From: Kiritimatiellaeota bacterium B1221
GTDB lineage: Bacteria; Verrucomicrobiota; Kiritimatiellia; SS1-B-03-39; UBA6053
DNA: 64,000 nucleotides
NCBI GenBank assembly: GCA_029269125.1
Contig: JARHXX010000021.1
Location: 1 to 64,000, forward strand
Direction of reading: 5' to 3'
The position numbers and the translations under genes are program-made. This document shows positions 37,433 to 59,528 of the stretch, one piece after another (positions within the stretch are counted from its first letter, which is position 1; every line of letters begins with the position of its first letter). The notes beneath the pieces were generated by a model. That model saw nothing but the letters and a program-made list of their open reading frames with translations. It did no database searches and had not been told where the DNA came from.

Positions 37433-40400
37433 CTACATAAGAGATTTTGCTTGTTCTTTCACCGGTCCAAAGTGTTTCGGCCATGGGGTATGATTGATGT
37501 GGTCCCACACATTTTGGGCTTCAGGCATTCGGTTCATTTTAATCAAACAACGGAGTTTTCCCAGGTAACCGACGGGTTCCTCCGTGCGGATGCGAATGAC
37601 ATTTTCCCACTGAATGAGGGCGGCTTCCCAGTTGTTTTGTTTTTCGCGCACGAGGGCCAGCGCCTCGTGACTTTCCGATTCATGGGGGAGGGCTTCGACC
37701 ATGGAGGTATAGGCGCGTTCACTTTCCATTGGTTGGGTGTTTTGGTGATAGCGTTTTGCCAGATTTTGGTAGAGTTCTAAATCATAAGGATTGCGGGAAA
37801 CCGTCTCTAAGAGTAGATCGATGGCTTTCCCCGGTTGTTTATTCCGGGTATAACTGTCGAGTAGCAACTCGCGGGTTTCCGGGTCATCGGGTTGTAGATC
37901 CAAGGCATGCCTCAGATGTAAGCTTCCCTGTTCATATTGATGTCTCCGCAAGAAAAATTTACCCAGGGCTTTGCGCAAAATAGGATTGTCCCGGCCGGTG
38001 TTTTGTACTTCCTGTTCGAAACGATGAATGTACGCCTCCAGATCCTTTGCGTTCCAGAAAATTTGGTCCAAACGATCCAGGGAACGGCGACGATGGTTTT
38101 GATTGGGCCCCCGGGCGATGATGGCTCCGGAAATGGATGCCACAGCCTGGCCGGTATCACCCATGTTCTGATAGGCTCGGGCTTGTTGTTCGTAGTAGGT
38201 GCTCAATGTTCCGTTGCCAATGCCCCGGTGGGGTTGGGTACGCACATGCATGGCAATGGCCTCCTCATAATAGTCTGCGGATTTTTGGAATTGATCTATC
38301 GCATACGCCACTTCGGCCAAAGTCACGGCACTGGCTTCCTGCCAACGGTTTTCACTGCGGAATTTATGGTCGGTCTTTACCAGTTGATTGAGGGCATTCC
38401 CGGTTTCCCCCTTATGGTATAGGCAGCGGATCTGCCGCGTTTGCGCATCCAGATGATCCGGACGTTCCGCCATCAGACCGGGAAGGATACGCAGGGCTTC
38501 CGCATAACGTTTTTGGGCCTCAAGATATTCGGTCAATTTGAAACGGCCTTCCCAGGACAGGATGCCCCGGTGATAGGCTTGTACCAAGCGGTCGGTTGCG
38601 AGTTCTTTTTGTCTGAGACCTCTGTAAAGATAATCCGTGCTGTAGAGTTGATGTGATTCGGAGTCGGGAAAATCTTCCAGAATCTTCAGTGCGACGGCAG
38701 TGAATTCCGCTTCTTTTTCTTCCCAATAATAGCTGCTGTGTCGCCAATAAATCGATTGGTTGTGGGAATCTTGATTGCCCAATTCCTGTCGAAGGCCGTC
38801 CAGTACAATGTTCAGGAGGCGGTTTTCCAGAGAACGTGAAAGGGTTTGTCCCAAGTTTACACGCCAACGGGCCATGTTATATCTCTGGGACTGCCAAACG
38901 TTTGGCCGAAGTTCTTTGATTCCCTCCGGTTCTGTTTCTGCCTGTTGAATCAGAAACGACAAAGCGCTTTCCGTTTTTCCAATGGCATGCAGGGTGTCCG
39001 CGAGCGTGGCCGTGATCAATTGCGCTTCATCATATGCTGTGCGTTGCAGAAGTGCAGGAAAAAGAGAAATCGCAAAACGTTCTGCATCCTTCTGAACTGT
39101 TTTGATATTTTGACTGTGCCCCTCCCGCCAGAGATTACAAAGTCCCTGCACCCAGCTTCTCCACATGGGAATATCCACCTCTCCGCTGAGCTCGTTTATA
39201 TAGAGCTTTTGCAGGTTCTGGTAAAGCTGTCGGCCGGATCCCAGAGAGACGCGTCCCTGTTGCGCAAAGGTATTATGGTAAACCAGATACAGTTGCTGTT
39301 TTATTTCGTGTTGTTTGATGGCGGTATAAGCGCGTTTGCTTTCTTTGACCCATAGATCTTCCGCCTGCCGGAAACGTTGGAGCGAGATGTAATAGGAAGA
39401 CAGCAGGCTTACGTTATCGATGACTTGATTGCCGAGGGTGCCTCCATTGGCATCCCGTCGTAAATCCAGACTGGCAGCCAGGAGTTGTACGGCCTCTTCT
39501 TTTTGATGGGCTGACCAGAGGACTCTCGCTAAATTTTGGGAGAGGGTCAGATGATCCTGGCTACCGGCGGGAACCAGGTTTCGCAAACGGTAGAGTTGTT
39601 GCAGTTGTTCTTCCTGCAATTTCCCCGGGGGGAGGGCGCCTAAGCTTTCCAGCAGGGAAGCCATTTGTAGTTGTTCTCCTTCGGCCCATTCCCCTTTAAA
39701 TGCTTTTTGAAGCGCCTGAAATGCACGGTCAACATGGGGAGAGGCCCCCTGAGCCTGTTGGGTGGCCTGTACGGATATCCGGAAGTTTAAAAGGTGGAGG
39801 GCACGTTGATTGGTGGCGGAAAGCGCCCGGGTTTGCAGGGTTTGAATCCTTGAAGTCATTTCGTCCAGCGTCGCTTCCTCCTGGAGGAGATCCAAAATCA
39901 AAGTCATGGACTGAATATAGGGGTAGATTCCCTGTTGTGATTGTCCCACCGTGCTGTCGACCAGTACCGCGAGCAAGCGGAAATCACGGCTGGATTTGTA
40001 AATGTTCTGCAGCATCCGGATATAATTCGCCGGAGAGGCCGATTTCCTGAACAGGGCGTATAAAGCGTCAATGATTTCAGGGGACAGTTCCTGAGGTGTA
40101 TGGTTTTGTTGTGACCGGCTATAAAGGTTGAACTGTTGGTTGATCCAGGATTGGATGGCATATTCCGGTAATTCCGCCCAGGCGTCCCTTTTGCTTTGTC
40201 GGGCTGCATCCCGCTTGTCTAATAATGTGTACCAATCGGACAGCGTTTGGTGGTCATGGAACTCTAGGACGTTCTCTTCTTTCAGGTGATTGAAAATTTT
40301 CACCGCTGATGCGACCTGATTGCATTCTGCGAGAATCATGGCATAGTTTTTCCCCCATTGAATCTGAAGCTCAAGTTTATCAGAGGCATACCATTGCTGA

Positions 40401-43400
40401 AGCCTGGATTCCAAAGATTCTCCCCGATCCAGGGCAACCAGCAATTGGTGGATCGCATATTTCCAGTCGAAATTATAGGCCTGTACCCGGTCCGCCTGCT
40501 CAAACAGGGCCAGCAGGCGATCCGCAAATTCTTCATTTGATTCTGTGGTTGCCGCCAGATGGGAAAGTGTTTCCACCCAGCGACGAATATAGATTTCATT
40601 CAATTCGGATGGTGTTTCAGGGGGAGAGGTGATCGCTTGTTCAAGCACCCTCAAACCTTCGAGCTGAAGAGCGGGGAGTTCGCTTCCTGCGCGTGCCTGA
40701 ACATAGGCACGGTCGAGTTGAATCCAGGGTTTCATTTCCGCTTTTGGGGGGTGGTTTTCCTGCGCACGCAACCATTGTAATACCCAGAGATGGTTTTCCT
40801 GTTCCAGAGTTTTGGTGGCCTTATCTAATTCCCGGCGCGTCAATGAGTGACGATTTTCAAGCTGCGAAATTAAATGGTTTTTGCGACCCTCAATTACCCA
40901 GTCCACCCATTTACGGGTGGTGGTCCGTGCCGCATCATATCGGGAAAGGTCTAAATGCTCTATCCAAAGCGGAAATGCCCGCATGACTTCATCCGACCAG
41001 TTTTTTTCCAACAGGAGATTGACGAGGTGTTGTGCACCTTGTTGTTTCGCGGTCTGGGTTTCAGCCCGTTGATATTTTATACGGGCGTGCTTTAATTTCA
41101 GCTCAAGGTTTCCATAGGTAAGGAGGAGGGATTCAAGCCTGTGTTCATCCGTTTTTTCTGATTTTTCCCAACGAATAAAAATACGTTCCAGCAGGGATTC
41201 CCAGGCATCCGCACCATCCGGTTCGAATCCGCTTTCTTTCAACCAGGAAACCAACAAAAAGATCTTTTCGGGATCTCCTGTTTCCACTTGCTTTTGAAGT
41301 TGGGTAAACATTTCTTTCCGCAGTTCCGCCACCAGAGGTGAGGTCCTGAATGTATAACTGCTTCGAATGGGTTGAATGAGTTCTTCGGTATTTTTTTCCG
41401 TCAGGAGAGTGAGGATGATTTCCTGCAGGGCACGGGCACTCTCTACATGTATGCCGTTGTTTCGTTGATCATAGCCGTTTCCCAGGAGCTGGTTGATAAC
41501 CGCTTGGTAGGCGGCGATAGCAGCGGGGCTGCGGTCGCCATTTATGACCGCATCCACCCGCGCCCGTTTCCACTTTTCGGCTTGGGTTACATGGTTTTTC
41601 GCGAGCAGGGCACTCAGATAGATCCCGTAAGTTTTGCTGGAAATCTCTTCGGGTTCCTGGGCCTCAACATAGGCGATCACCTCATCCAGTTCTCGTTCCT
41701 GCCATAGGAAACTTAAAAGGACATTGTGGATCTGTTGTCGGTCACTCTGTTTCCCGTTCGGGTATTTTTGCAGCGTGTGTTTTAGATAGGCAATGGCGCG
41801 ATTGAGTTCTCCCCGCTGTTTCAGGCGCTGAGCATATTGGGTGTGATGAATGAAATGATCTGTGCTTTCTTCCGCCAGGATACGTGCCATGTCCAGGGCT
41901 TTATCCGACTGACCCAAGGCATCGCAGGCATGTATCATATTATAATACCATTGCTGCATCGGATGTCGAAGATGGTTTTGTCTTCTCAATACGGGTTCAA
42001 GTGCAAGCAAAATTTCTTTTCGTTCCCGGGGAGAGGTGACTGCGCTCTGACTGAACTGCATCATCTGAAGGGCACGGGCATCATCCACGGTCCCCGGGTC
42101 CGTTTGCAATGTGCGGGCCATGCGCATGAGTTGACGTTGATAGGCCTCCCATTGACGGGTGTTCTGCAGAAACATCAGCTGCAGACGGTCGCTCCCGCGG
42201 GTTCCTTGAATTCTTGTATCCACTTCATGCCAGTAATGGGCGGCAAGATCGGAGCGCTGACGTGAAAAGGCATCCATGAGAAGCACCCACAGCTCCTCCA
42301 GCCCCGCATCTTCTTGATTGAACGCATCTCTGGCTTCAAAGATCGTGGGGAGGGGGGATTCCATCATCACTGCATCATTCTTCAGGATCTTTAGACTCCG
42401 GGTCAGGCGGTGTTGCATGTCATCCGCATTTTCAACTAGAAGTTGAATCTGTTCTTTACGGATTCGCTGACTTTGGGCATCAAAATATTCGACGCGTCCG
42501 GGCCACCAGGTCCCTTCGATTTGTTTGAAATCTGTATATAGATGTTTTCCTGTGAGGGTGTCATTTTCCAAAAAAAGACGTTCAAGAAGCAGGGAGCGGG
42601 CTGGGTCGATGACCCAAACTTCCCGGTGATGGTTCCGGTCAGAGGGATGGGTAAAGTAAATATGAATTAGACCTTCCTCATCCTGTAGCGTGGCTTTCAT
42701 GCGGGACATGGCATGCAATTGATTGCCGAAGTATCCGGCAAAAGGAGCGGGAAATTGATGAAGAGAGTCATTTATTTGATCCTGAGTTTTTCCCAAACGC
42801 CAGATGGTATCCAAAACGCCCCGTTCATTTTCGATGTTCCATTCCCGATGAATACCGGTGCCGGGGATGTGAAGCGGGGTGGAGAGCCAATGCAGGTCCT
42901 GTACCAGCAGTTCTGATTCTCCTTGGACCATCCATTCGTCTGCGGGGTTGCGGGAGGACGCACGCAGGGTGATCTGAAATCCTTTGTTCTTTTCCCGGAA
43001 GAAAGACCTGCGGTTCAGTTTGGAGAGCACGGCGCGGATTTCCGGTTCCCAACTTGGGTTCAAAGAGGGTGCATTTCTCAAGGTAAGGCTGGGGAATGCA
43101 CCCTGATCCGGAATCAGAGTCGGCATATACCATCCCGGATGGATTCTTCTGCTTCGTTCGCTTCGTCTCTGTTTGGCAAACGCCCCGTATTCCCTACCTG
43201 GCCGTAGATCCAGATCCATGGTGCTGCTGCCAATTTTTTGTCGGTTACCAGAATATTGGGTAAGGGGAAGGGGGACTTCACTGTCACTCAATATTTCGTT
43301 CACACTTCCCGGTATCCCATATGTTTCATTCCCGATTCGGTCAAATCCTACATTGGCAGCCAGAAGCGAAACATAATCCTCATAGCCGGTAAGACCGTTT

Positions 43401-46400
43401 ATATTTGTATTGCCATCAAAAAATCGAAGTCCGCCCGTAATTCCTCCGCCCCCAAAGGGATCACCGTTGCTTCTGAATGCGACAGTGGAACTCAGATGTC
43501 CGTATTCTGGCTGTAAGCTCTCTCTTCCCATCTTATTTAAGTCCTGACGTGTCTGTTGATAAAGTTTTTTGCGCCAGGTTTTGGCCCGCAGCATTTGTTG
43601 CTGTCGCAGGGCATAACGCGCGGAGTCCCGTCCTTCCTGAAAAAAGTTCTCCCCGTCCCGCATGCGGAATTTCTTTGCCACTGCAAACCGTTCCCGGTCG
43701 GCATCGCTTTCCAATACCAGAAACGAAGTGTAAGGGGTCATGATCTGATACTCTTCGGACAGGCTGATGATTTGTTCCCGAATTTCCGGGGAAGCTCCCT
43801 GGCTCACCAGCATGTCCAAATGACTTCGTGCCCACAGACGGGGAATGAAGGAATTGCCTTGCTCCGCGGAATCCAGCTGAAAGGTGGTGGTGTAAGATAA
43901 GGCTTTACCATCAACCGTTCCTCTGACGAGCACTTCTCCTTTTTGGGGACCTGTGGATGGGTTATATCGACCGACCATACGTTGTTGACTTCCCAAGGGG
44001 AGGTTGGGGAGGGGATCCGGATAAACGGCCGCGACTTCGACGCCTTCAAACTGAATGGATAAATTTTTTACCGTAGGGCTGGTGAGTTCGTTGAGCAGGT
44101 TGTTGGCGGTGAGTGCGGGATCTTCACCGTCGATTCCGCGCCAGCTGCCGCTCCCTTTATTTGAGAATGCTTTGAGCACGCTGGCCTCATACAGGTTGCC
44201 GGGAGCCACGGCATGAAAAGTGAAACCTTCGAAGTCCATGCGGGAAAAACGGTCGATCCAGGCTTGGGCATCCGCATTTTTGGTGGTGGGAATTCCGTCA
44301 CTGATCACAATCACTTCTGCGGGTCCCTGAATGCGGTTTTGCAGTTCGGAAAACGCTAAATCCAGATCCGACCACCCCAGGGGATTCCGGGCCTCCACCG
44401 CATCCAGGATTTGGATACGGTTTTCGGGAGTCAGGCCGGTAAAGCTCTCGGTGATCCAGCGCGCTTCGGTATCGAAGGTCATGACATGCACGCGGTCCTG
44501 ATCTCCCATTCCGTTGAGAAGGGCGGAGAGAAAATCCAGCTGGGCTTTACGTGCAGGACCTGAAACCGATCCGGAGCTGTCTACCATCACGACCCATTGC
44601 CGGGGATCCGATGCGGGAAGCAGATCTCTGGATCTGGGGCTTCCGCTGTCCGGCGCCCGGAGCATGAGCATGAAATACCCGTCGTCTCCCCTTCGATGGG
44701 GGATGACCCGGATAGGGCTGGGATCTTTTTCGGTTTCGATATGAAGGACGAAATCCCTTTCCGGCACCACCTCTTCGGCCTGATACTCCAATTGCGCGGC
44801 GTGGGAGGTTTGGTCTGTGCGGCAGAGATGGCTGGGGCTGAATACCTGACGCAGGGCGTCGGAGGAGTGGATGCGAACCTGGAGGGACAATTCTTTCAGG
44901 GGGGTCTGACGGAAGAGGTCGCTTTGCAGTCCATAGCGGTAGCTGTACCGGTTGCCCGCTTTGGGTAAGACCTGGGTATAGCCGATCTTGATCCGCTTTT
45001 CACCGACGATGGGATAGACCCGGGCTTTAAACAGATTTCCGCCATTCCATTCCAACAGACCCGGATCACGTTTTTCCCGTAGAATGGTTTCGTAAATTTC
45101 TCTGGCCCGTTGCTTCTCCACAATTTCACCGTTGACCAACTCGCCGTCAATCCACATGCCAAATTCGGAAATGGAAGCGTCCGCAGGCAGGGGGAAGTAA
45201 AAGACCCCCTCCAACACTTGAGAGGTATGGTTGATAAATGTTTCTTCAATGACGGTGCGGGCAATTTGATCCCGAATGTCCACGGTGACCTGATGGGTGC
45301 CCATCGTCAGCGGCACGTTCCGCCCATCTACAGTGGCTAACAGGGAGCCCAGGGCTTCGCTGCTGTCATCGGCAAGATAGCCTGTAAGCCAACCGGGAGG
45401 TGTCGGAAGTTTTTGCATGTCCTGATCGGAGACGCGGGCCACAACGGTCTCGTTTTCCAGCGTCCACGAAATGCCTTCCGGTCCCTGCACGGTTATCTGA
45501 ACTTTTTCGGGGACTTTTAGTTGTATGTCTCCGCGGTGAAGCCTGATATTGGTGGCGCTCTGTATTTCGACCAGACTGTCGGGCCCCAGAATGATTTCCG
45601 CTCCATTCCGCAGACGGGCTTTGAGAGCGTTGGCCCCCCGGCGACCGGTTTTCAACCAGTCTTTTGCTTCGATGGGCATGCCGATTTGGGCGACAGACCA
45701 ACGGTTTCCGGTGATCGGTTTGAGACTGCCGTTGCCTTCCCGGTCGATGATATGTCCCAATTCATAGGATAAGGATAATTCGACGCGGCCCTGTCCGGGT
45801 TGGAGGGTTTTAATTTCCTGCGGGGTGTTTTCAGGGGTGAAAGCCACTTTACCTTCGGTGACTTCGGCAAATACCCGATTGGATTTGTCATCCACTTCCA
45901 CTTCGAAATCGGTCCCAATGTCTTGCAGGGTGCCCACCGGAGTTGTGAGGGTTACCCCGGGGTGTGGGGATGCCACCCGGATATGGAGGGTTCCCTTTCG
46001 TAAGTCAATCGGCTGTCGTTGTTGCGGGTGACGGTGCTGCAAACTGAACACGCTGCCGGCTGAAATTTGAATCCATAAACCCTTCTGTAATTCCAAGGCC
46101 GTATCTTCGTCTACACGATATTGACCGGCCGCCGCGGGGGTCGATACCGAATTCCCGCTCTCCATGTCTTCGAAAGGTTGGGATGGATGAAGGAGCACGG
46201 ACATGGTGCACACGATTATAAACACGGCGGCAGCCGCCCAGAGTCCGGCTTTAAAAATTAAAGGCTGACGTACCCGGGGGATTTCCGGATCGGCGATTCC
46301 CAAGGCGCGGACCAGATCTGACTGGGTGGCGGCGCTTTGACAAAAGATCCGCCGGGCAGTTTCAGATGTCAGCAGGATTGATTCAAGTTCCTGATGGCTT

Positions 46401-46468
46401 TGGCGATCCAAGGTTCCGTCAAAAAAGTTTCCGATTCCGCGGTCCAAATGGGCTGGTGATTCAATCAT
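37433..46468 (-). CDS. giant FecR/VIT/vWA/TPR envelope protein (3011 residues)
   Basis: A single uninterrupted protein of about 340 kDa. Residues 1-73 are cytoplasmic and look like a short anti-sigma region. A membrane helix lies at 74-93. Outside follow two FecR-like segments (about 115-235 and 255-345), a VIT domain (about 373-500, with FINHTSQVLEGVFYFPLPAD), a vWA domain (about 624-800) with the metal site DSSGS at 630-634, a Gly/Asn-rich stretch near 1000-1035, a LolA-like beta region (about 1140-1330, TDFKQIEGTWWPGRVEYFDA) and, from about 1400 to the end, many TPR/helical repeats (e.g. DLELYQNLAKRYHQ). The start overlaps the ECF sigma gene by 4 bp. Inference: membrane-anchored regulator that senses an envelope signal and holds the sigma factor. 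Confidence 0.92.
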   Translation of the reverse strand: MIESPAHLDRGIGNFFDGTLDRQSHQELESILLTSETARRIFCQSAATQSDLVRALGIADPEIPRVRQPLIFKAGLWAAAAVFIIVCTMSVLLHPSQPFEDMESGNSVSTPAAAGQYRVDEDTALELQKGLWIQISAGSVFSLQHRHPQQRQPIDLRKGTLHIRVASPHPGVTLTTPVGTLQDIGTDFEVEVDDKSNRVFAEVTEGKVAFTPENTPQEIKTLQPGQGRVELSLSYELGHIIDREGNGSLKPITGNRWSVAQIGMPIEAKDWLKTGRRGANALKARLRNGAEIILGPDSLVEIQSATNIRLHRGDIQLKVPEKVQITVQGPEGISWTLENETVVARVSDQDMQKLPTPPGWLTGYLADDSSEALGSLLATVDGRNVPLTMGTHQVTVDIRDQIARTVIEETFINHTSQVLEGVFYFPLPADASISEFGMWIDGELVNGEIVEKQRAREIYETILREKRDPGLLEWNGGNLFKARVYPIVGEKRIKIGYTQVLPKAGNRYSYRYGLQSDLFRQTPLKELSLQVRIHSSDALRQVFSPSHLCRTDQTSHAAQLEYQAEEVVPERDFVLHIETEKDPSPIRVIPHRRGDDGYFMLMLRAPDSGSPRSRDLLPASDPRQWVVMVDSSGSVSGPARKAQLDFLSALLNGMGDQDRVHVMTFDTEARWITESFTGLTPENRIQILDAVEARNPLGWSDLDLAFSELQNRIQGPAEVIVISDGIPTTKNADAQAWIDRFSRMDFEGFTFHAVAPGNLYEASVLKAFSNKGSGSWRGIDGEDPALTANNLLNELTSPTVKNLSIQFEGVEVAAVYPDPLPNLPLGSQQRMVGRYNPSTGPQKGEVLVRGTVDGKALSYTTTFQLDSAEQGNSFIPRLWARSHLDMLVSQGASPEIREQIISLSEEYQIMTPYTSFLVLESDADRERFAVAKKFRMRDGENFFQEGRDSARYALRQQQMLRAKTWRKKLYQQTRQDLNKMGRESLQPEYGHLSSTVAFRSNGDPFGGGGITGGLRFFDGNTNINGLTGYEDYVSLLAANVGFDRIGNETYGIPGSVNEILSDSEVPLPLTQYSGNRQKIGSSTMDLDLRPGREYGAFAKQRRSERSRRIHPGWYMPTLIPDQGAFPSLTLRNAPSLNPSWEPEIRAVLSKLNRRSFFREKNKGFQITLRASSRNPADEWMVQGESELLVQDLHWLSTPLHIPGTGIHREWNIENERGVLDTIWRLGKTQDQINDSLHQFPAPFAGYFGNQLHAMSRMKATLQDEEGLIHIYFTHPSDRNHHREVWVIDPARSLLLERLFLENDTLTGKHLYTDFKQIEGTWWPGRVEYFDAQSQRIRKEQIQLLVENADDMQHRLTRSLKILKNDAVMMESPLPTIFEARDAFNQEDAGLEELWVLLMDAFSRQRSDLAAHYWHEVDTRIQGTRGSDRLQLMFLQNTRQWEAYQRQLMRMARTLQTDPGTVDDARALQMMQFSQSAVTSPRERKEILLALEPVLRRQNHLRHPMQQWYYNMIHACDALGQSDKALDMARILAEESTDHFIHHTQYAQRLKQRGELNRAIAYLKHTLQKYPNGKQSDRQQIHNVLLSFLWQERELDEVIAYVEAQEPEEISSKTYGIYLSALLAKNHVTQAEKWKRARVDAVINGDRSPAAIAAYQAVINQLLGNGYDQRNNGIHVESARALQEIILTLLTEKNTEELIQPIRSSYTFRTSPLVAELRKEMFTQLQKQVETGDPEKIFLLVSWLKESGFEPDGADAWESLLERIFIRWEKSEKTDEHRLESLLLTYGNLELKLKHARIKYQRAETQTAKQQGAQHLVNLLLEKNWSDEVMRAFPLWIEHLDLSRYDAARTTTRKWVDWVIEGRKNHLISQLENRHSLTRRELDKATKTLEQENHLWVLQWLRAQENHPPKAEMKPWIQLDRAYVQARAGSELPALQLEGLRVLEQAITSPPETPSELNEIYIRRWVETLSHLAATTESNEEFADRLLALFEQADRVQAYNFDWKYAIHQLLVALDRGESLESRLQQWYASDKLELQIQWGKNYAMILAECNQVASAVKIFNHLKEENVLEFHDHQTLSDWYTLLDKRDAARQSKRDAWAELPEYAIQSWINQQFNLYSRSQQNHTPQELSPEIIDALYALFRKSASPANYIRMLQNIYKSSRDFRLLAVLVDSTVGQSQQGIYPYIQSMTLILDLLQEEATLDEMTSRIQTLQTRALSATNQRALHLLNFRISVQATQQAQGASPHVDRAFQALQKAFKGEWAEGEQLQMASLLESLGALPPGKLQEEQLQQLYRLRNLVPAGSQDHLTLSQNLARVLWSAHQKEEAVQLLAASLDLRRDANGGTLGNQVIDNVSLLSSYYISLQRFRQAEDLWVKESKRAYTAIKQHEIKQQLYLVYHNTFAQQGRVSLGSGRQLYQNLQKLYINELSGEVDIPMWRSWVQGLCNLWREGHSQNIKTVQKDAERFAISLFPALLQRTAYDEAQLITATLADTLHAIGKTESALSFLIQQAETEPEGIKELRPNVWQSQRYNMARWRVNLGQTLSRSLENRLLNIVLDGLRQELGNQDSHNQSIYWRHSSYYWEEKEAEFTAVALKILEDFPDSESHQLYSTDYLYRGLRQKELATDRLVQAYHRGILSWEGRFKLTEYLEAQKRYAEALRILPGLMAERPDHLDAQTRQIRCLYHKGETGNALNQLVKTDHKFRSENRWQEASAVTLAEVAYAIDQFQKSADYYEEAIAMHVRTQPHRGIGNGTLSTYYEQQARAYQNMGDTGQAVASISGAIIARGPNQNHRRRSLDRLDQIFWNAKDLEAYIHRFEQEVQNTGRDNPILRKALGKFFLRRHQYEQGSLHLRHALDLQPDDPETRELLLDSYTRNKQPGKAIDLLLETVSRNPYDLELYQNLAKRYHQNTQPMESERAYTSMVEALPHESESHEALALVREKQNNWEAALIQWENVIRIRTEEPVGYLGKLRCLIKMNRMPEAQNVWDHINHTPWPKHFGPVKEQAKSLM

Positions 46469-50797: not shown

Positions 50798-50897
50798 ATC
50801 AATTCTTCCTTAAAAATGTTGTCGCCCACTGGCGGTTTTTTCCTGTCTACCCAATTTCTCACAATAGACAATCTCTGTTTGGATGCTGTTTTTCCGT

Positions 50898-50925
50898 TTG
50901 CAATCCCGTTAAACTTGTTTATATT
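50898..50925 (+). promoter_or_regulatory. candidate promoter of the ArsR-methyltransferase/ahcY operon
   Basis: TTGCAA (50898-50903) and TATATT (50920-50925) are spaced by 16 bp. A start about 7 bp later leaves a short leader with GGAA before the ATG at 50945. A direct repeat CGTTTAT/TGTTTAT around the -10 could be an operator. Confidence 0.5.
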
Positions 50926-50944
50926 CGTTTATCCGGAAATACAG

Positions 50945-51886
50945 ATGGAAGCAGCACCCCCTAACTTAAATTTATTTAAAGCACTCAGTGATGAGTGCCG
51001 TTTACGCATTTTACGGGCCGTTTCGCAAGCGGAATTGTCCGTGGCTGAACTGGTTCGGGTCCTGGGCATGCCCCAATCGACGGTCAGTCGGCATCTCAAG
51101 CCCTTGCGCGAATGTGGATTGTTGGAAACCCGACGCAATGGCACTTCGGTTTTTTATCACCGTGGACCCGCATTTTCCGACTCCGATTTGCATCAGGTAA
51201 TTGATCGCAGCTTGTCTCAGATTCCGGGTGCGAATGAAGACAAAGCCTCGGTTCGCCTGATTTTGGATGAGCGGATTTCCCGCAACCGGGACTTTTTTGA
51301 TGATTTAGCCGGACGTTATGGGTCACTCACCGAGCCCGGTGGGGGCTGGTCAGCGGTGGCCGCGGCCCTGGCCATTGGATTTACAGGGTGCAAAGTGGCG
51401 GATGTGGGGGCAGGTGAAGGGGCCTTGACTTTGCAGTTGGCCCGCTTTTGCGAGCAGGTGATTGCGGTGGATCTCTCCCCGCGCATGCTCATGACCCTGC
51501 GGAATATTGCGGATGAGGCCGGGTTGGGGGAGCGGGTGATGACCCTGGAAGGGGATCTGGAAAAACTTCCGATCGATGATGGGGAGATGGATGTGGTGTT
51601 CATCAGTCAAGCTTTACATCATGCCGCCCAGCCACAAGCGGCCATTCGGGAGGCGGCCCGTTGCCTTTGTCCCGGAGGACGGTTGGTGGTGCTGGATTTA
51701 GTCGCCCATGAACAGGAGTGGGTGCGTGAACAGTACGCCGATCTCTGGTTGGGGTTTGAGCCAGGGGAACTGGAAAGCTATTTTGAAAAGGCCGGACTGA
51801 CTTGTGGTAAAGGTGCACAATTGCCCGGTGCCACGCCGGACCTACCCGTTTTATTAATGACAGCAGTTAAAAATCAAAGAACCTGA
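50945..51886 (+). CDS. ArsR-family regulator fused to SAM-dependent methyltransferase, SahR-like
   Basis: A 313-residue fusion. The N-terminal winged helix-turn-helix (about residues 8-90) has FKALSDECRLRILRAVS and the recognition helix QSTVSRHLKPLRECGL. The C-terminal class I methyltransferase-like domain (about 135-300) has motif I VADVGAGEGALTL and motif post I VIAVDLSPRML, so it can probably bind SAM or SAH. It stands 12 bp before ahcY. ArsR-methyltransferase fusions beside ahcY or methionine genes include SahR-type regulators that respond to SAH, so the methyltransferase domain may be a sensor. The ATG at 50945 begins the family sequence. Confidence 0.88.
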   Translation: MEAAPPNLNLFKALSDECRLRILRAVSQAELSVAELVRVLGMPQSTVSRHLKPLRECGLLETRRNGTSVFYHRGPAFSDSDLHQVIDRSLSQIPGANEDKASVRLILDERISRNRDFFDDLAGRYGSLTEPGGGWSAVAAALAIGFTGCKVADVGAGEGALTLQLARFCEQVIAVDLSPRMLMTLRNIADEAGLGERVMTLEGDLEKLPIDDGEMDVVFISQALHHAAQPQAAIREAARCLCPGGRLVVLDLVAHEQEWVREQYADLWLGFEPGELESYFEKAGLTCGKGAQLPGATPDLPVLLMTAVKNQRT

Positions 51887-51898
51887 AGGACTGAAACT

Positions 51899-53314
51899 AT
51901 GACCGATACCCTCGAAAAGAAAACCGATTATATCATTAAAGATATCTCACTGGCGGCCTACGGACGCAAAGAAATGGAATTGTCTGAAAACGAAATGCCC
52001 GGATTAATGGCGCTTCGTGAGCAGTACGGAAAAAGTCAGCCCCTGAAAGGTGCCCGCATCGCCGGTTCTCTGCACATGACCATTCAGACCGCCATGCTGA
52101 TCGAAACCCTGCAAGTGTTAGGCGCCGAAGTGCGCTGGGCCAGTTGCAATATTTATTCCACTCAGGACGAAGCGGCGGCTGCGATTGCCGCCACCGGCAC
52201 CCCGGTGTTTGCGGTCAAAGGCGAAACCCTGGAAGAATACTGGGAATACACCGACAAAATTTTGGACTGGGGGGATGACGTTTATCCCAACATGATTTTG
52301 GACGACGGAGGCGATGCCACCTTGTTTGTACATCTCGGTGCCAAAGCTGAAAAAGATATCACCGTGTTGGATGTCGAACCCGAAAGTGAAGAGGAAGCAG
52401 TGCTCTACGCCCAGTTGCGTAAAGCCGTGGCAAAAAACCCCGGACGTTTCGCCAAACTGGCGGCTTCCATTAAGGGTGTTTCTGAAGAAACCACCACTGG
52501 TGTACACCGCCTGTATCAGATGCATGCCAAAGGCGAACTGCTGTTCCCCGCGTTTAATGTGAACGATGCGGTGACCAAATCCAAATTCGACAATAAATAC
52601 GGATGCCGCCACTCACTTCCCGACGGCATTTGCCGGGCCACCGATATTCTGATGGGCGGAAAAGTTGCCGTGGTCGCCGGATACGGCGATGTGGGTAAAG
52701 GCTGTGCCGAAGCCCTGCGCGGACAAGGTGCCCGGGTGATCGTGACTGAAATCGATCCGATTTGTGCCTTGCAGGCGGTGATGGATGGTTACGAAGTGAC
52801 CACCATGGCTGACGCTTGTGAAGAAGGGGACATCTTTGTGACCACGACGGGCTGCTGTGATGTGATCACCGAAGAACACATGCTGCAAATGCGTGAGGGC
52901 GCGGTGGTGTGTAACATCGGACACTTCGATAGCGAAATTCAGGTTTCCGCGATGAAGAAATATGAGTGGAACAACATCAAAGCGCAGGTGGACCAGATTA
53001 CCTTGCCCAGCGGCAACAAGATTGTTTTGTTGGCCGAAGGTCGCCTGATGAACCTGGGCTGTGCCACCGGCCATCCCAGTTTCGTGATGTCCAACAGTTT
53101 TACCAATCAGGTATTGGCGCAGATCGAGTTGTACCAGGATACCGAAAAATATCCGGTGGGACTGTACGTGCTGCCCAAACACCTTGACGAAGAAGTGGCG
53201 AGACTGCATCTGCCGCGTCTGGGCGTGAAGCTCGACAGCTTGAGCGAGAAACAGGCGAAGTACTTGGGTCTGCCCCAGGAAGGCCCCTACAAGCCGGATC
53301 ATTACCGCTACTAA
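51899..53314 (+). CDS. ahcY: adenosylhomocysteinase
   Basis: A 471-residue S-adenosylhomocysteine hydrolase with the normal bacterial length. Visible motifs: [48 protein letters not shown] with the catalytic Lys/Asp, the NAD loop [25 protein letters not shown] and the C-terminal PDHYRY. It splits SAH into adenosine and homocysteine, relieving product inhibition of methyltransferases. It shares a transcript with the ArsR-methyltransferase and is followed by a strong terminator. Confidence 0.98.
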
Positions 53315-53593: not shown

Positions 53594-53938
53594 ACTAGGA
53601 AAAACGGGGAGCCATTACTCGCTCAATTGGAGAGTAGGGAGGGCTCCAGGGTGCTTGGAGGTCAGCAAAATCGGGATCACAACGAACGCATGGCCGAAAA
53701 GCTCTTGAAAACGTCCTTGGAAAGTTTACAAATCCGCGAAGAAGATTTGCTGGCAATGAAAGCAAACCAAGTGGAGAAGCAGGCTCTTGCTTGGTTATTG
53801 AAATCAAATACAACCGTCACTGGTGTTTGGCTGGCAGATCGTTTGAAGCTTGGGCATTCGAGCAATGTTTCCCGATCCTTGCGGGTGGATCGAGAATTCA
53901 AAAAATTAAAACAAAAAATGACGAAATGCAAAGCCTGA
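53594..53938 (+). pseudogene. remnant of a REP-associated tyrosine transposase (C-terminal part)
   Basis: About 110 residues are recognisable as the C-terminal helical part of RAYT (Y1 transposase) proteins of Verrucomicrobia-type genomes: RDHNERMAEKLLKTSLESLQ, ALAWLLKSNTTVTGVWLADR, GHSSNVSRSLRVDREFKKLK. The N-terminal catalytic domain with the HUH motif and Tyr is absent; before the recognisable part lies unrelated sequence. The stop codon is inside a REP-like repeat (53912-53992), as expected since REP elements accompany such genes. It is inactive. Confidence 0.7.
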
Positions 53939-53992
53939 CCCCTTCATCCTTCATCAAAAAATGACGAAATGCAAAGCCTGACCCCTTCATCC
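53912..53992 (+). repeat. REP-like element, two tandem copies with a 43-bp period
   Basis: The 38-bp sequence starting CAAAAAATGACGAAATGCAA and ending GACCCCTTCATCC occurs at 53912-53949 and again at 53955-53992, without mismatch. An inverted copy of its core stands at 59134-59161. The transposase stop codon lies inside the first copy. Confidence 0.9.
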
Positions 53993-54541: not shown

Positions 54542-54618
54542 CCGTAAAATTACGGTGTAGAGATACGTATATTCCTAAAAAAAGTTTTTTTGATTAACTG
54601 GGGGCAATGCTGTTTAAT
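54542..54618 (+). promoter_or_regulatory. candidate promoter and inverted repeat before the PLP/FAD cassette
   Basis: TTGATT (54590-54595) and TTTAAT (54613-54618) are spaced by 17 bp. A perfect palindrome CCGTAAAATTACGG lies at 54542-54555, 34 bp before the -35 box, where an activator could bind. A Shine-Dalgarno AGGA precedes the GTG at 54639. Confidence 0.5.
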
Positions 54619-54638
54619 AATAAAAAATAGGAAAAATT

Positions 54639-55619
54639 GTGAAACCATCTCTTCAACATCCCCTCATTAAAAATAATATACTCAGCACTGTGGGTCACAC
54701 GCCCCTTATTTCTTTATCTCGGTTGTTTCCAGAGGTTGAGGTAGATCTCTTCGGTAAATTCGAATCGTTGAATCCTGCGGGTAGTATCAAAGACCGCACG
54801 GCCCTGCAGCTCATCTCCCATGCGATGGAAACAGGGGAGCTTCAACAAGGAGACACCGTCATTGAATCCAGTTCGGGCAATATGGCAATCGGATTGGCGC
54901 AGGCCTGCATCTTTAATCACTTGAAGCTCATTGTGGTTGTTGATCCGAATATTAATTTATCAACGGTTAAAATATTGAAGGCTTACGGTGCCCGAATTGA
55001 ACAGGTGTCGGAACCGGCTGAAGAGGGGGGCTATCTTGAAGCGCGCCTTCAGCGTGTTCACGCTTTGTTGGAAGAGACTGAAAATAGTTTTTGGCCTAAT
55101 CAGTATAAAAATCCTCAGAATCCAATCGCCCATTATCAGACCATGCACGAAATCAGTATGGCCCTGCATGGGCAGTTGGATTATCTGTTTGTGGCCACCA
55201 GCACCTGCGGTACGCTCATGGGCTGTGCAGAATATATAAAAGAACATGCTTTGCCCACCAAACTGGTGGCCGTGGATGCGGTAGGAAGCGTGATCTTTGG
55301 CGGTGAGCCTAAAAAAAGATTACTTCAGGGTCACGGTGCGGGGAAGCCTTCTCAGTTTCTTGATAAATCCGTGGTGCATGATGTGATAAAAGTGGATGAT
55401 AAGGAATGTGTGGAGGGCTGCCGGGAATTGTTGAATCGCGAAGCGATGTTTTGTGGTGGGTCCAGTGGTGGGGTGGTGAGTGCATGTAAAAAATATTTGC
55501 CTTCCCTGCCAAAAGGATCTCGTTGTGCGTTGTTGTTAGGTGACCGTGGAGAGCGATACTTAGATACGATTTACAATCCGGAATGGGTTGCCAAACACAT
55601 AACCTGTCAGCCCTCATGA
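54639..55619 (+). CDS. PLP-dependent cysteine synthase-family enzyme, SbnA-like
   Basis: A 326-residue fold-type II PLP enzyme. The cofactor lysine is Lys51 in NPAGSIKDR, the phosphate loop follows in SSSGNMAIGLAQA, and the Gly-rich loop is near VATSTCGTLMG. The C-terminal part (GHGAGKPSQFLDKSVVHDV) is closer to SbnA-type enzymes, which join an amino acid to a serine derivative to make precursors of 2,3-diaminopropionate, than to housekeeping CysK. It starts with GTG after AGGA and a promoter-like sequence, and its stop overlaps the next gene by 4 bp. The reaction is inferred. It is the first gene of a three-gene cassette that lies between REP-like elements. Confidence 0.85.
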   Translation: MKPSLQHPLIKNNILSTVGHTPLISLSRLFPEVEVDLFGKFESLNPAGSIKDRTALQLISHAMETGELQQGDTVIESSSGNMAIGLAQACIFNHLKLIVVVDPNINLSTVKILKAYGARIEQVSEPAEEGGYLEARLQRVHALLEETENSFWPNQYKNPQNPIAHYQTMHEISMALHGQLDYLFVATSTCGTLMGCAEYIKEHALPTKLVAVDAVGSVIFGGEPKKRLLQGHGAGKPSQFLDKSVVHDVIKVDDKECVEGCRELLNREAMFCGGSSGGVVSACKKYLPSLPKGSRCALLLGDRGERYLDTIYNPEWVAKHITCQPS

Positions 55620-57388
55620 ATTTCCGGATAGGTATAATTGGTATGGGACCGAAAGGACTGTACGGTCTGGAGCGTTTACTTTCCCATGTCGTCGCTGCAG
55701 GTGGCGGGATGAATATTCAGGTGGATCTATTCAATCGGAATTCCTTTTTTGGTGCTGGCGATATTTACCGCAGCGATCAACCTGAGTACCTGTTGATGAA
55801 TTTCCCCAATGGGTACATTAACATGTGGGCACACCGTGATCCTGAACCGATTGTTCCCCATCCGTGTTCATTCCTTGAGTGGTTGAAAGATGAAAAAGAT
55901 CCGCAGGCCTCCGAACACGATTATTCTTCACGCGCCTGTGTGGGGGAATATTTGCAACATGGATACAATTTATTGAAGCAGCATTGTCCGGAAGGGGTGA
56001 CTCTAAATCAACTTGTAGCTGAAGTGGTTGACATGACCGTGACTGAAGAAAAAAGTATGCTAGTTCAGACCGTGAATGCTGAAGGCGTGGAATGTTCCCA
56101 GGGACCTTACCAGCAACTTCTGTTGGCGACGGGGCATCCTCGTCCGCCTGCATCCATGAAATCATCTGCGTCCTTTGTCCCCTTTATTTATCCCGTGGAC
56201 CAAAAACTTTCAGCGGTCGGGGAAGGGAGTACGGTGGCGATCAAAGGAATGGGGTTAACGTTCATGGATGCGGTTCTTGCTCTGACAGAGGGTAGGGGGG
56301 GGCGCTTTCATGATGTGGAAGGATTGAAGCCTCGCTATGAAAAATCAGGAAAAGAACCGGCTAAAATTTTTCCATTTTCACTATCCGGATTGTTGATGAT
56401 GCCGCGGAGCAGTAGTTATGGTCAACCTCCACGCCAGACCCGTTTTGTAGATTGGGAGCATTGGCAGAAAGAAGGTTCTCAACGTCAGCTTGATTTCGAA
56501 AAAGATTTGTGGCCGACCCTTCAGTCTGAAATTTCTTTCGCGTATTATGAATCGGTTCTAAAGCAACACGATTTGGATGCGGACAAAATACTGACCCCGC
56601 GAGAATTGGATATCGTGATAGATGTTTTTCATCGTCAGTACCCAGAGGAATGCCCCGTAAATTGGCAGACCCTCACGAAAAAGTGCAATCAATGGACACC
56701 TGTAGAATTTTTAGAAAAAATGATTGAGGAGGCAAGAAAGGGGGAGCAGGACAGCGGGTGGGTACGCAGTTGCTCCTGCTGGAAATATCTGAGTGCCTCT
56801 TTTAACCAAATTTATTCGAACGGAGGATTTACCCCAGAGTCCCATCGTTTTTTTGATACGGTTTTGTCGGGTCATCTAAACCGTTTGGCTTATGGTCCTC
56901 CGCTGGTGAATATGCAGAAAGTGTTGTGTCTTGCAAAAGCGGGTTTGGTAGATTTTTCCTTTTCGGAAAATCCTGATGTTCAATTTAACTCCGACCAAAA
57001 CAGATGGGATTTGCAGATGGGCCATCGGGGCGAGAAGGCCGAGCTATTGGTGGATGCGCGGATACCGAAAATAAATTTGCGTCAGAGATCTTCAGCATTG
57101 TATGAAAATCTTTTGGATCGGGGAATTATCCGTCTGTTCACCAATAGGGATGAACACGGAAATAGTTATCAACCGGGTTGCTTGGATCTTAGTCCTGAGG
57201 GTCACCCATTAAATCGACACGGACAAACCTTCAGACAGGTAACCGTTCAGGGCACACCCACTGAAGGATTTACTTACGATAACGATACACTTTTAACCAC
57301 CCGCAATGATTTCGTTTCTGATTGGGGCGCGCGGGTGGTTCATCAGATTAATGCCTCTCAACCCGCTTGTAATCAGGAAACTCCATGA
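55616..57388 (+). CDS. FAD/NAD(P)-binding protein of the NAD_binding_9 type
   Basis: A 590-residue cytoplasmic protein. The N-terminal dinucleotide-binding motif is GMGPKGL (GxGPxG, residues 9-14), with a second segment LLLATGHPRPP typical of FAD/NAD(P)-binding oxidoreductases and TVAIKGMGLTFMDAV, another Rossmann motif near residue 205. The family (FAD-NAD(P)-binding, also called HcaR-like by some annotators) includes enzymes in siderophore and other peptide gene clusters, but few are characterised. Its start (55616) overlaps the previous stop by 4 bp, and its stop overlaps the next start by 4 bp. It may oxidise the product of the first enzyme; that is an inference. Confidence 0.8.
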   Translation: MNFRIGIIGMGPKGLYGLERLLSHVVAAGGGMNIQVDLFNRNSFFGAGDIYRSDQPEYLLMNFPNGYINMWAHRDPEPIVPHPCSFLEWLKDEKDPQASEHDYSSRACVGEYLQHGYNLLKQHCPEGVTLNQLVAEVVDMTVTEEKSMLVQTVNAEGVECSQGPYQQLLLATGHPRPPASMKSSASFVPFIYPVDQKLSAVGEGSTVAIKGMGLTFMDAVLALTEGRGGRFHDVEGLKPRYEKSGKEPAKIFPFSLSGLLMMPRSSSYGQPPRQTRFVDWEHWQKEGSQRQLDFEKDLWPTLQSEISFAYYESVLKQHDLDADKILTPRELDIVIDVFHRQYPEECPVNWQTLTKKCNQWTPVEFLEKMIEEARKGEQDSGWVRSCSCWKYLSASFNQIYSNGGFTPESHRFFDTVLSGHLNRLAYGPPLVNMQKVLCLAKAGLVDFSFSENPDVQFNSDQNRWDLQMGHRGEKAELLVDARIPKINLRQRSSALYENLLDRGIIRLFTNRDEHGNSYQPGCLDLSPEGHPLNRHGQTFRQVTVQGTPTEGFTYDNDTLLTTRNDFVSDWGARVVHQINASQPACNQETP

Positions 57389-58839
57389 CCAATACGATTC
57401 CTCTGCTTACCCCGCGAGTGGCAAACTGGATGAAATTCTTATGTCTCAATCCGAATGTGCTCTCGGATCTTTTGTCAGAATACGGTTCGCCGATAAATAT
57501 TCATCACACTGATGAATTTAAACAAAATATTAAAGAGCTGGAGGACGTGTTGGATCAAGCGGAAATACCGCATTTGGTTCAGTTCGCCCGCAAAGCAAAT
57601 AAATGCAAAGCGTTTGTTCACGCTTCCCGTATTCATGGATGCGGGGTGGATACAGCCAGTGAACGGGAATTGCAGGAGTGCTTAGATGCCGGTGTTGATC
57701 CTCAAAAGCTCATTCTTACTGCGGCTGTTAAAACTCGATCTATGCTTGAATTGGCGGTGGGGCATCAGGTGATGGTGGTGGTGGACAACGAAGATGAATG
57801 TAGGCTAGTAAACAGTGTGGCAGCTGGCTTGCAGATTAACGCACAGCTGGGAATACGCATCAGTGGTTTTGAAACTGATACTGGAAAATTATACAGCCGA
57901 TTTGGTTTTGATCTAAAGACAGTACCTGACCTATTAGAAAATTGGACGCAGGAGGGTTTACAACATCTAAGTTATCGGGGACTTCACTTTCATCTGAATG
58001 GCTATTCAATTCCCCACCGAGGGCAGGCACTGCTCCAGAGTCTTGGTTTGGCAGAGGAACTGAAGCAAGCCGGTTTTGTCACTGACTTTATTGATATGGG
58101 TGGTGGACTGCTGATGAACTATCTGAAAAAAGCAGAGCAGTGGCTCAATTTTCAACGTGAGCTAAAAAAGGCTGTAAAAGGGGAACGCGAACCCATTACG
58201 TTTGGAAACAATGGACTGGGTTTTCAGATGGTAAATGAGCAACTTCATGGGAGTTTAAATACGTATCCATATTTTAATACCACTCCCCGTAAAACGTTTT
58301 TATCTCGAGTGCTAGAGGTGCAAGATGAAGCCGGCGAGAGTGTGGGAAGCCGATTGGCTGCCAGTGGAATCACCCTCCGGCTTGAACCTGGACGTTGTTT
58401 GCTGGATCAATGCGGATTCACTCTAGCCCGAGTCGCAAGTCGCAAGCGAGATGCCCGAGGTGATTGGTTGATCGGACTAGAGATGAACATGACTCAAATG
58501 CATAGTTCCAGTGCTGATTTCCTGTTGGATCCTTTGCTAATTCCCAGAACTGAACCCCAAGAAGATGGTCCAGTACAGGTTTATCTCACCGGCGCGTATT
58601 GCCTAGAACGGGATGTGTTGTTGCAACGGAAAATATGTCTGCCTTCATTTCCGGAAGTGGGGGACATGATGGTGTTTTTTAATACAGCGGGATACATGAT
58701 GCATTTTTTTGAATCCGAAGCGCATCTGTTTGATTTGGCAAAAAATATAATTTATCGTGCGGGGACTTCTTCACTGAGTGGGGATCATTTTTATGCTGAT
58801 GAGAACAGTATGGACTTTCTGTTTCAAGCTCAGGAATGA
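57385..58839 (+). CDS. PLP-dependent decarboxylase, Y4yA-like
   Basis: A 484-residue fold-type III PLP enzyme of the diaminopimelate/ornithine decarboxylase class. The cofactor lysine is Lys70 in FARKANK, the glycine-rich phosphate site appears as DMGGGLLMNY, the His-x-Asn pair in LHFHLNGY, the substrate/cofactor loop in LEPGRCLLD, and the catalytic Cys in CLERDVL. The length exceeds LysA (about 420). I relate it to Y4yA of Rhizobium NGR234, a PLP enzyme beside cysteine-synthase-like genes. It ends the three-gene operon. No terminator is clear in the 300 bp after it. Substrate unknown. Confidence 0.82.
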   Translation: MTNTIPLLTPRVANWMKFLCLNPNVLSDLLSEYGSPINIHHTDEFKQNIKELEDVLDQAEIPHLVQFARKANKCKAFVHASRIHGCGVDTASERELQECLDAGVDPQKLILTAAVKTRSMLELAVGHQVMVVVDNEDECRLVNSVAAGLQINAQLGIRISGFETDTGKLYSRFGFDLKTVPDLLENWTQEGLQHLSYRGLHFHLNGYSIPHRGQALLQSLGLAEELKQAGFVTDFIDMGGGLLMNYLKKAEQWLNFQRELKKAVKGEREPITFGNNGLGFQMVNEQLHGSLNTYPYFNTTPRKTFLSRVLEVQDEAGESVGSRLAASGITLRLEPGRCLLDQCGFTLARVASRKRDARGDWLIGLEMNMTQMHSSSADFLLDPLLIPRTEPQEDGPVQVYLTGAYCLERDVLLQRKICLPSFPEVGDMMVFFNTAGYMMHFFESEAHLFDLAKNIIYRAGTSSLSGDHFYADENSMDFLFQAQE

Positions 58840-59133: not shown

Positions 59134-59161
59134 AAGGGGTCAGGACTTGCATTTAGTCATT
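59134..59161 (-). repeat. inverted copy of the REP-like core
   Basis: Read on the minus strand it matches the element near 53916 and 53959 at 25 of 28 positions (AATGAC.AAATGCAA..CCTG then ACCCCTT). It stands in inverted orientation to those copies, so the cassette at 54639-58839 lies between them. A remnant MTKCKS-stop coding end, similar to the MTKCKA end of the RAYT remnant, is visible on its minus strand. Confidence 0.7.
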
Positions 59162-59528
59162 TCTAAACATTTAATATCAGACACAGTTCCTTTTAACTTT
59201 CTTTGATTTGTCTCTTTCATCTTTTCCCCCTGAACCCCGCAAGCTCCCCGCCAGGCCGCTCGTCCCTCGCTCAACATGGTAGGTATCCTGCTCCTCCCCA
59301 AAGACCCCGGCCCGCCCGCAAGTCGATCCCCCTGAACCCCATCGGCTTCCCGACAGTCCCAGCCCCGCGTCGCTCCACTCCCTCCCAGAGGGCCTGTTTT
59401 CAAAAGGTCATTTTTTCCGAATTGCGGAAACGGTGTCCGGGACGACTTCCGACTTACGGAAGTGGCTGATGAATGATCCTGCGGGACGAACGCCGAGACC
59501 TTCGTTGTGCCCGTCTGGCTGTGGCGGC

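Follow-up and report, generated by a model that had tools for sequence, protein, structure and literature searches.

Three adjoining genes encoding an SbnA-type enzyme, an FAD protein and a Y4yA-type PLP decarboxylase occupy positions 54639-58839 (+) of the window, the 64,000-nucleotide stretch of Kiritimatiellaeota bacterium B1221 DNA analysed here, and the same three genes, in one order and on one strand, were found at 78 of 80 loci in other genomes, an arrangement that is far beyond chance. In the best joint explanation, to which we would give an even chance, the three genes form a complete, mobile biosynthetic cassette. From sequences and structural models we infer its substrate, product and function, and the resulting reading, a self-contained pathway to a small N-oxygenated, decarboxylated diaminopropionate-type amine with a role in stress, may be held and doubted in equal measure. 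More tentative is the wider proposal of a widespread, hitherto undescribed three-enzyme pathway that has moved between phyla as a unit, in which the small N-oxygenated diamine would be a metabolite of general stress, acting as an antioxidant, by masking metals or as a signal. With its occurrence in distant phyla and its repeated position next to catalase HPII, Ku/LigD and topoisomerase IB, such a minimal three-gene route to an amine suggests that bacterial stress survival has a small-molecule branch not recognised so far, and the cassette is short enough for whole expression and testing in a laboratory strain.

Organization of the cassette and its surroundings in the window

The three-gene cassette with two ATGA overlaps, described in an earlier note on this DNA, was borne out by the open reading frames, the sequence itself and the family matches (Table 1), the overlaps showing translational coupling at most, which falls short of the channelled pathway that the earlier note took them to suggest. 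The ATG at 55616 was taken as the start of the FAD gene, giving a protein of 590 aa, because both the homologue alignment and the ATGA overlap favour it over the beginning of the longest ORF at 55583.

Table 1. Features of the cassette and its flanks (positions in the window)
Feature	Position	Strand	Basis or remark
sbnA-like gene, predicted O-phospho-L-serine-dependent beta-replacement enzyme, PLP fold type II	54639..55619	+	GTG start; TIGR03945, PDB match, residues
FzmM/CreE-like FAD-/NADPH-dependent amine N-oxygenase gene (predicted)	55616..57388	+	PF13454, 8cp2 match, model, Asn62
y4yA-like PLP decarboxylase gene, fold type III	57385..58839	+	PF02784, model, identity to Sulfitobacter trio enzyme
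ATGA overlap, sbnA-like stop / FAD gene start	55616..55619	+	read directly in the sequence
ATGA overlap, FAD gene stop / y4yA-like start	57385..57388	+	read directly in the sequence
29-nt repeat, upstream copy	53916..53944	-	inverted relative to the copy at 59134; about 90% identity
29-nt repeat, second upstream copy	53959-53987	inverted relative to the copy at 59134	about 90% alike
29-nt repeat, downstream of cassette	59134..59162	+	about 90% alike
Perfect 14-bp palindrome CCGTAAAATTACGG	54542-54555	.	one copy in the window, upstream of cassette

The inverted REP-like elements said to flank the cassette proved to be the 29-nt repeats of Table 1, of which the genome holds six copies at <=3 mismatches, half of them flanking the cassette; this dispersed repeat starts GGGGTCAGG, and further copies lie on contigs C44 and C114. 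The palindrome is present as described but is not conserved, being missing upstream of the trio in all the relatives checked (0/75), and CCGTAAAATTACGG was rejected as a conserved operator; the promoter-like sequence claimed at 54594-54621 is no better than chance, the region containing 6 such sites versus 7.3 +/- 2.7 in shuffled sequences.

The trio is preceded by an ArsR-methyltransferase gene and an S-adenosylhomocysteine hydrolase gene, the latter named by eye from its sequence, and followed by a sulfatase; the immediate neighbours are not stress genes. The former gene (50816-53314, +) encodes an ArsR-type regulator fused to a SAM methyltransferase and stands directly before the S-adenosylhomocysteine-hydrolase-like gene, a pair possibly forming a self-regulated methyl-cycle unit. 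Elsewhere in the window (37433-46468, -) a 3011-aa ORF combines FecR, VIT, VWA and TPR domains.

The GC content at third codon positions (GC3) is 0.42-0.48 in the trio versus 0.63-0.69 in the neighbouring genes. No full-length homologue of the FAD protein was found in 57 other genomes drawn as relatives or, the own genome excepted, in 388 genomes sampled across the phylum. Because of this contrast and of the missing homologues in the sampled relatives, the window copy was probably gained by horizontal transfer.

Recurrence of the trio in other genomes

The genome scan with the Y4yA alignment returned the 80 loci, which are thus defined by the third gene; an earlier genome scan that used the FAD protein alone had given no matches. 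The trio is distributed among Bacteroidota, Chloroflexota, Planctomycetota, Pseudomonadota and Actinomycetota, and is borne in identical order by Sulfitobacter plasmids and by a Tsukamurella plasmid. It is accessory even where common, the Y4yA model detecting it in 16 of 149 genomes of one Bacteroidota family. The two exceptions among the loci are L030, cut by a contig end, and L102, from an Obscuribacterales MAG, that is without the FAD gene and has the SbnA-like domain inside a longer protein. In this latter locus (L102:1934-6113) a 913-aa protein with the SbnA-like PALP domain at residues 586-857 adjoins Y4yA, and its N-terminal part is not recognised by Pfam. The apparent absence of SbnA in L091, L099, L101 and L107 was dismissed as an ORF-calling artefact. 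On plasmid pTpau01 of Tsukamurella paurometabola (L019:5487-6929), the RefSeq annotation of the trio FAD gene is limited to a C-terminal portion, given as a hypothetical protein; a single open frame spans the whole gene.

Clustering of the flanking ORFs across the 80 loci yielded no fourth conserved gene, and the most frequent further family occurs at 22 loci in scattered positions. The earlier note had proposed that the three enzymes work on their own, and had asked whether the trio recurs in other genomes without IucA/IucC or NRPS genes; it does recur (78/80 loci), with no IucA/IucC, NRPS or exporter gene as its conserved neighbour, and so behaves like a stand-alone system.

Predicted enzymes of the cassette

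The sbnA-like product scores 407.4 bits against TIGR03945 (PLP_SbnA_fam), above the curated cut-off of 349.95, and its top PDB match is SbnA of S. aureus (E 2.6e-75). The selection of O-phosphoserine in SbnA has been ascribed to Arg132, Tyr152 and Ser185 (PMC12414870), and the window enzyme carries these together with the PLP-binding Lys47, as belongs to SbnA, and with the equivalents of Ser75 and Gln151. Among the 35 aligned trio members the equivalents of Lys47, Ser75, Arg132, Gln151 and Tyr152 are invariant, and that of Ser185 is kept in 34, one having Gly.

The FAD protein belongs to PF13454 (NAD_binding_9) and has a sole PDB sequence match, 8cp2 (E 7.5e-26), the L-aspartate N-hydroxylase of Streptomyces sp. 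V2 (PMC10404684). Its AlphaFold2 model (pLDDT 93.6) shares the whole-length fold of 8cp2/8cp5 with a TM score of 0.81-0.83 (0.82 to 8cp2), the structurally matched residues being about 21-23% identical; N-hydroxylases of ornithine, lysine and diamines come next among its matches. All 78 of 78 trio members have the catalytic Asn62, those of them that cover positions 9 and 11 all have the glycines of the FAD motif there, and Gly211, Leu214 and Asp218, invariant in a 49-row alignment, are assigned from the fold as putative NADPH-site residues. The fold, the cofactor sites and the catalytic Asn of the FzmM/CreE group are thus present, whereas its aspartate-binding cluster of Arg13, Arg276, Asn413 and Arg416 is not: Arg13 is replaced by Lys in 72 of the 78 FAD proteins, and the columns of Arg276, Arg412, Asn413 and Arg416 contain gaps or substitutions in nearly all of them, although Arg266 stays Arg or Lys and Arg409 is kept in most. 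This comparison covers the aligned part of the proteins, outside which Arg577 falls. Since Asn62 and the cofactor sites are conserved and the arginine cluster is mostly replaced, the N-oxygenase machinery appears to have been kept and the aspartate pocket mostly lost, and the protein is probably an amine N-oxygenase for an amine other than aspartate, with N-O bond formation predicted from fold and residues. The FAD/NAD(P)-binding oxidation enzyme of the earlier note is hereby retained as an FAD protein and sharpened by its fold from a generic oxidoreductase.

The third product belongs to PF02784 (Orn_Arg_deC_N), and the Y4yA label agrees with the RefSeq naming of its relatives. Its model (pLDDT 90.5) matches D-Orn/Lys, diaminopimelate, BtrK and N-citrylornithine decarboxylases; the fold and the catalytic residues are those of a fold type III PLP decarboxylase, and many residues are invariant across the family. 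The window protein and its counterpart in the Sulfitobacter trio share 44% identity. In a quick tree the trio Y4yA proteins form a branch separate from the rhizobial siderophore-type and the mycobacterial ones (SH-aLRT 99), and the rows nearest to the window copy are a Thalassovita MAG and Bacteroidota.

Stress genes around the trio in relatives

Catalase HPII, SDR, YetF, topoisomerase IB, DUF892, Ku, LigD and glycogen/trehalose enzymes recur as neighbours of the trio. A control search covered 47 whole genomes, with near defined as within 10 kb of the trio and the expectation derived from uniform placement: 9 of 32 HPII copies lie near the trio against 0.17 expected (P about 3e-13), or 7 when near-duplicate loci are counted once (P about 7e-10), and so do 5 of 17 Ku copies against 0.09 expected, four of these five being from Algoriphagus. 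HPII directly adjoins the trio on the same strand at five loci of two phyla, with gaps of 52-277 bp and in both orders. A flank with one of six stress markers is found at only 25/80 loci, and the window copy has none. A TonB receptor beside the trio was considered and rejected, the neighbours of about 710 aa being catalase HPII.

In Sphingomonas melonis the EcfG regulon includes Ku, topoisomerase IB, a trehalose enzyme and catalases, with the motif GGAAC-N17-20-GTT (PMC6599016). By this consensus a putative EcfG-type motif stands upstream of the trio at 6 of the 11 loci from Alphaproteobacteria, where 0.016 per locus would be expected, and at 0 of 68 loci outside that class. It is absent upstream of the window trio, and five of the six loci that carry it are from closely related Sulfitobacter and have diverged spacers. 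Because the relatives repeatedly place the cassette among general-stress genes, a stress metabolite, such as a radical or metal scavenger or a signal, is a likelier product than a siderophore.

Proposed pathway and alternative explanations

In the proposed pathway, the SbnA-type enzyme would turn O-phospho-L-serine into aminoacrylate and add an amine, probably L-glutamate, and the conserved residues and the SbnA precedent suggest an opine-like diaminopropionate derivative such as ACEGA as the product. The FzmM-like flavoenzyme would then N-oxygenate an amine of this product with NADPH and O2, and hydrolysis of a nitrone so formed could free 2-oxoglutarate, standing in for the missing SbnB; no precedent was found in the literature for a flavoenzyme of this subfamily oxygenating a secondary amine to a nitrone that is then hydrolysed. 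The Y4yA-type enzyme would finally strip the amino-acid carboxylate to leave a small N-oxygenated diamine. The sequence in which the three enzymes act is conjectural. That the flavoenzyme works on the product of the SbnA-like enzyme is suggested, without being proved, by the variation of the redox slot beside the SbnA-like and Y4yA genes between systems, with ornithine cyclodeaminase in pMAH135, an octopine/nopaline-type dehydrogenase in rhizobia and the flavin N-oxygenase in the trio.

The same variation is also what recommends an unlikely alternative, in which the flavoenzyme just replaces SbnB and cleaves ACEGA oxidatively to L-2,3-diaminopropionate and 2-oxoglutarate with no N-O group left, Y4yA then decarboxylating diaminopropionate to ethylenediamine or a derivative; the absence of SbnB from the window's genome speaks for it as well, but the fold and the catalytic Asn are those of N-hydroxylating monooxygenases and not of amine or opine oxidases. 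The flavoenzyme might instead act first on a separate amine, with the SbnA-like enzyme joining the hydroxylamine to aminoacrylate and Y4yA decarboxylating the N-O or N-N amino acid so formed. Related flavoenzymes do supply nitrogen for N-N bonds (PMC7347517, PMC11705231), and beta-replacement enzymes of the SbnA family use varied nucleophiles; the conserved SbnA-specific residues, however, favour an ordinary amine nucleophile, and no N-N enzyme is conserved near the trio, so that we regard this order of events as quite improbable. An ordinary aspartate N-hydroxylase supplying nitrosuccinate, 3-nitropropionate or nitrite is very improbable: although the nearest solved structure is such an enzyme, most aspartate-site residues are replaced across the trio family, on which ground an aspartate N-hydroxylase proper was rejected, and, as the trio has no conserved neighbour of any kind, a conserved CreD-type lyase is missing too.

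Another explanation considered was that the trio derives, as a leftover or as a module, from a cluster for a siderophore or metallophore like those of staphyloferrin B or of the rhizobial y4x genes. Such clusters are known to contain SbnA and Y4yA families, and a metal-binding product is chemically possible. The window's genome, 94.6% complete, gave no match to SbnB (ornithine cyclodeaminase family, PF02423) or to the IucA/IucC synthetase (PF04183), and the 80 loci have no synthetase, receptor or exporter conserved beside the trio; a synthetase and a transporter next to the genes in relatives were what the earlier note had named as the sign of a fragment of a known siderophore cluster. Because there is no fourth conserved gene and the genome is without SbnB and IucA/IucC, the cassette is not to be taken for a fragment of a siderophore cluster; with the trio Y4yA branch also apart from the rhizobial one, this explanation is largely refuted already and keeps little probability. 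Rhizobactin B was rejected as a model for the SbnA and Y4yA combination, its paper giving no matching genes. The reading that we prefer is still the N-oxygenated, decarboxylated amine.

Comparison with known systems

The combination of SbnA, FAD and Y4yA genes was not found in the literature searched, where Y4yA is barely mentioned, which is not proof of absence. The staphyloferrin B enzymes SbnA/SbnB of S. aureus, making L-2,3-diaminopropionate, share with the trio the SbnA family of the first enzyme and its O-phosphoserine residues, but the trio is without SbnB and NIS synthetases and has a flavin N-oxygenase and a Y4yA decarboxylase. The rhizobial y4x operon (Y4yA, CysK-like, octopine/nopaline-type dehydrogenase, IucA/IucC, MFS), whose arrangement the earlier note gave correctly, resembles the trio in a Y4yA-type decarboxylase adjoining CysK/SbnA-like and redox enzymes; the trio differs in the redox enzyme, in the gene order and in the absence of a synthetase and exporter, and the rhizobial Y4yA falls outside its branch.

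The mycobacterial unit of pMAH135 (SbnA-like, ornithine cyclodeaminase, Y4yA, MATE exporter) likewise places SbnA-like and Y4yA enzymes around a redox enzyme, but with an SbnB-type enzyme in place of the flavoenzyme, an exporter and a separate Y4yA branch. The SbnA-like enzyme, Y4yA and MATE exporter are found both in pMAH135 (L023:3262-8753), with the ornithine cyclodeaminase, and in an M. intracellulare plasmid (L022), and these units probably represent another small-metabolite pathway. A plasmid of Deefgea piscis (L017:3457-7894) has sbnA, sbnB, an FzmM-like FAD gene and thrH next to one another, which makes a second pairing of SbnA with the FzmM-like flavoenzyme family, SbnB included.

The biosynthesis of L-alanosine also brings together diaminopropionate and flavin-dependent N-oxygenation (PMC11705231, PMC7347517), but with its own carrier protein, acyl-CoA-dehydrogenase-like hydroxylase and N-N chemistry, none of which the cassette has. 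With FzmM/CreE (8cp2) the trio flavoenzyme shares the whole-length fold, the FAD and NADPH sites and the catalytic Asn, and it differs in its low identity, in the mostly replaced aspartate site and in having no conserved lyase partner. The enzyme families are known from other systems, and there is a real chance that their combination in the cassette is a new pathway.
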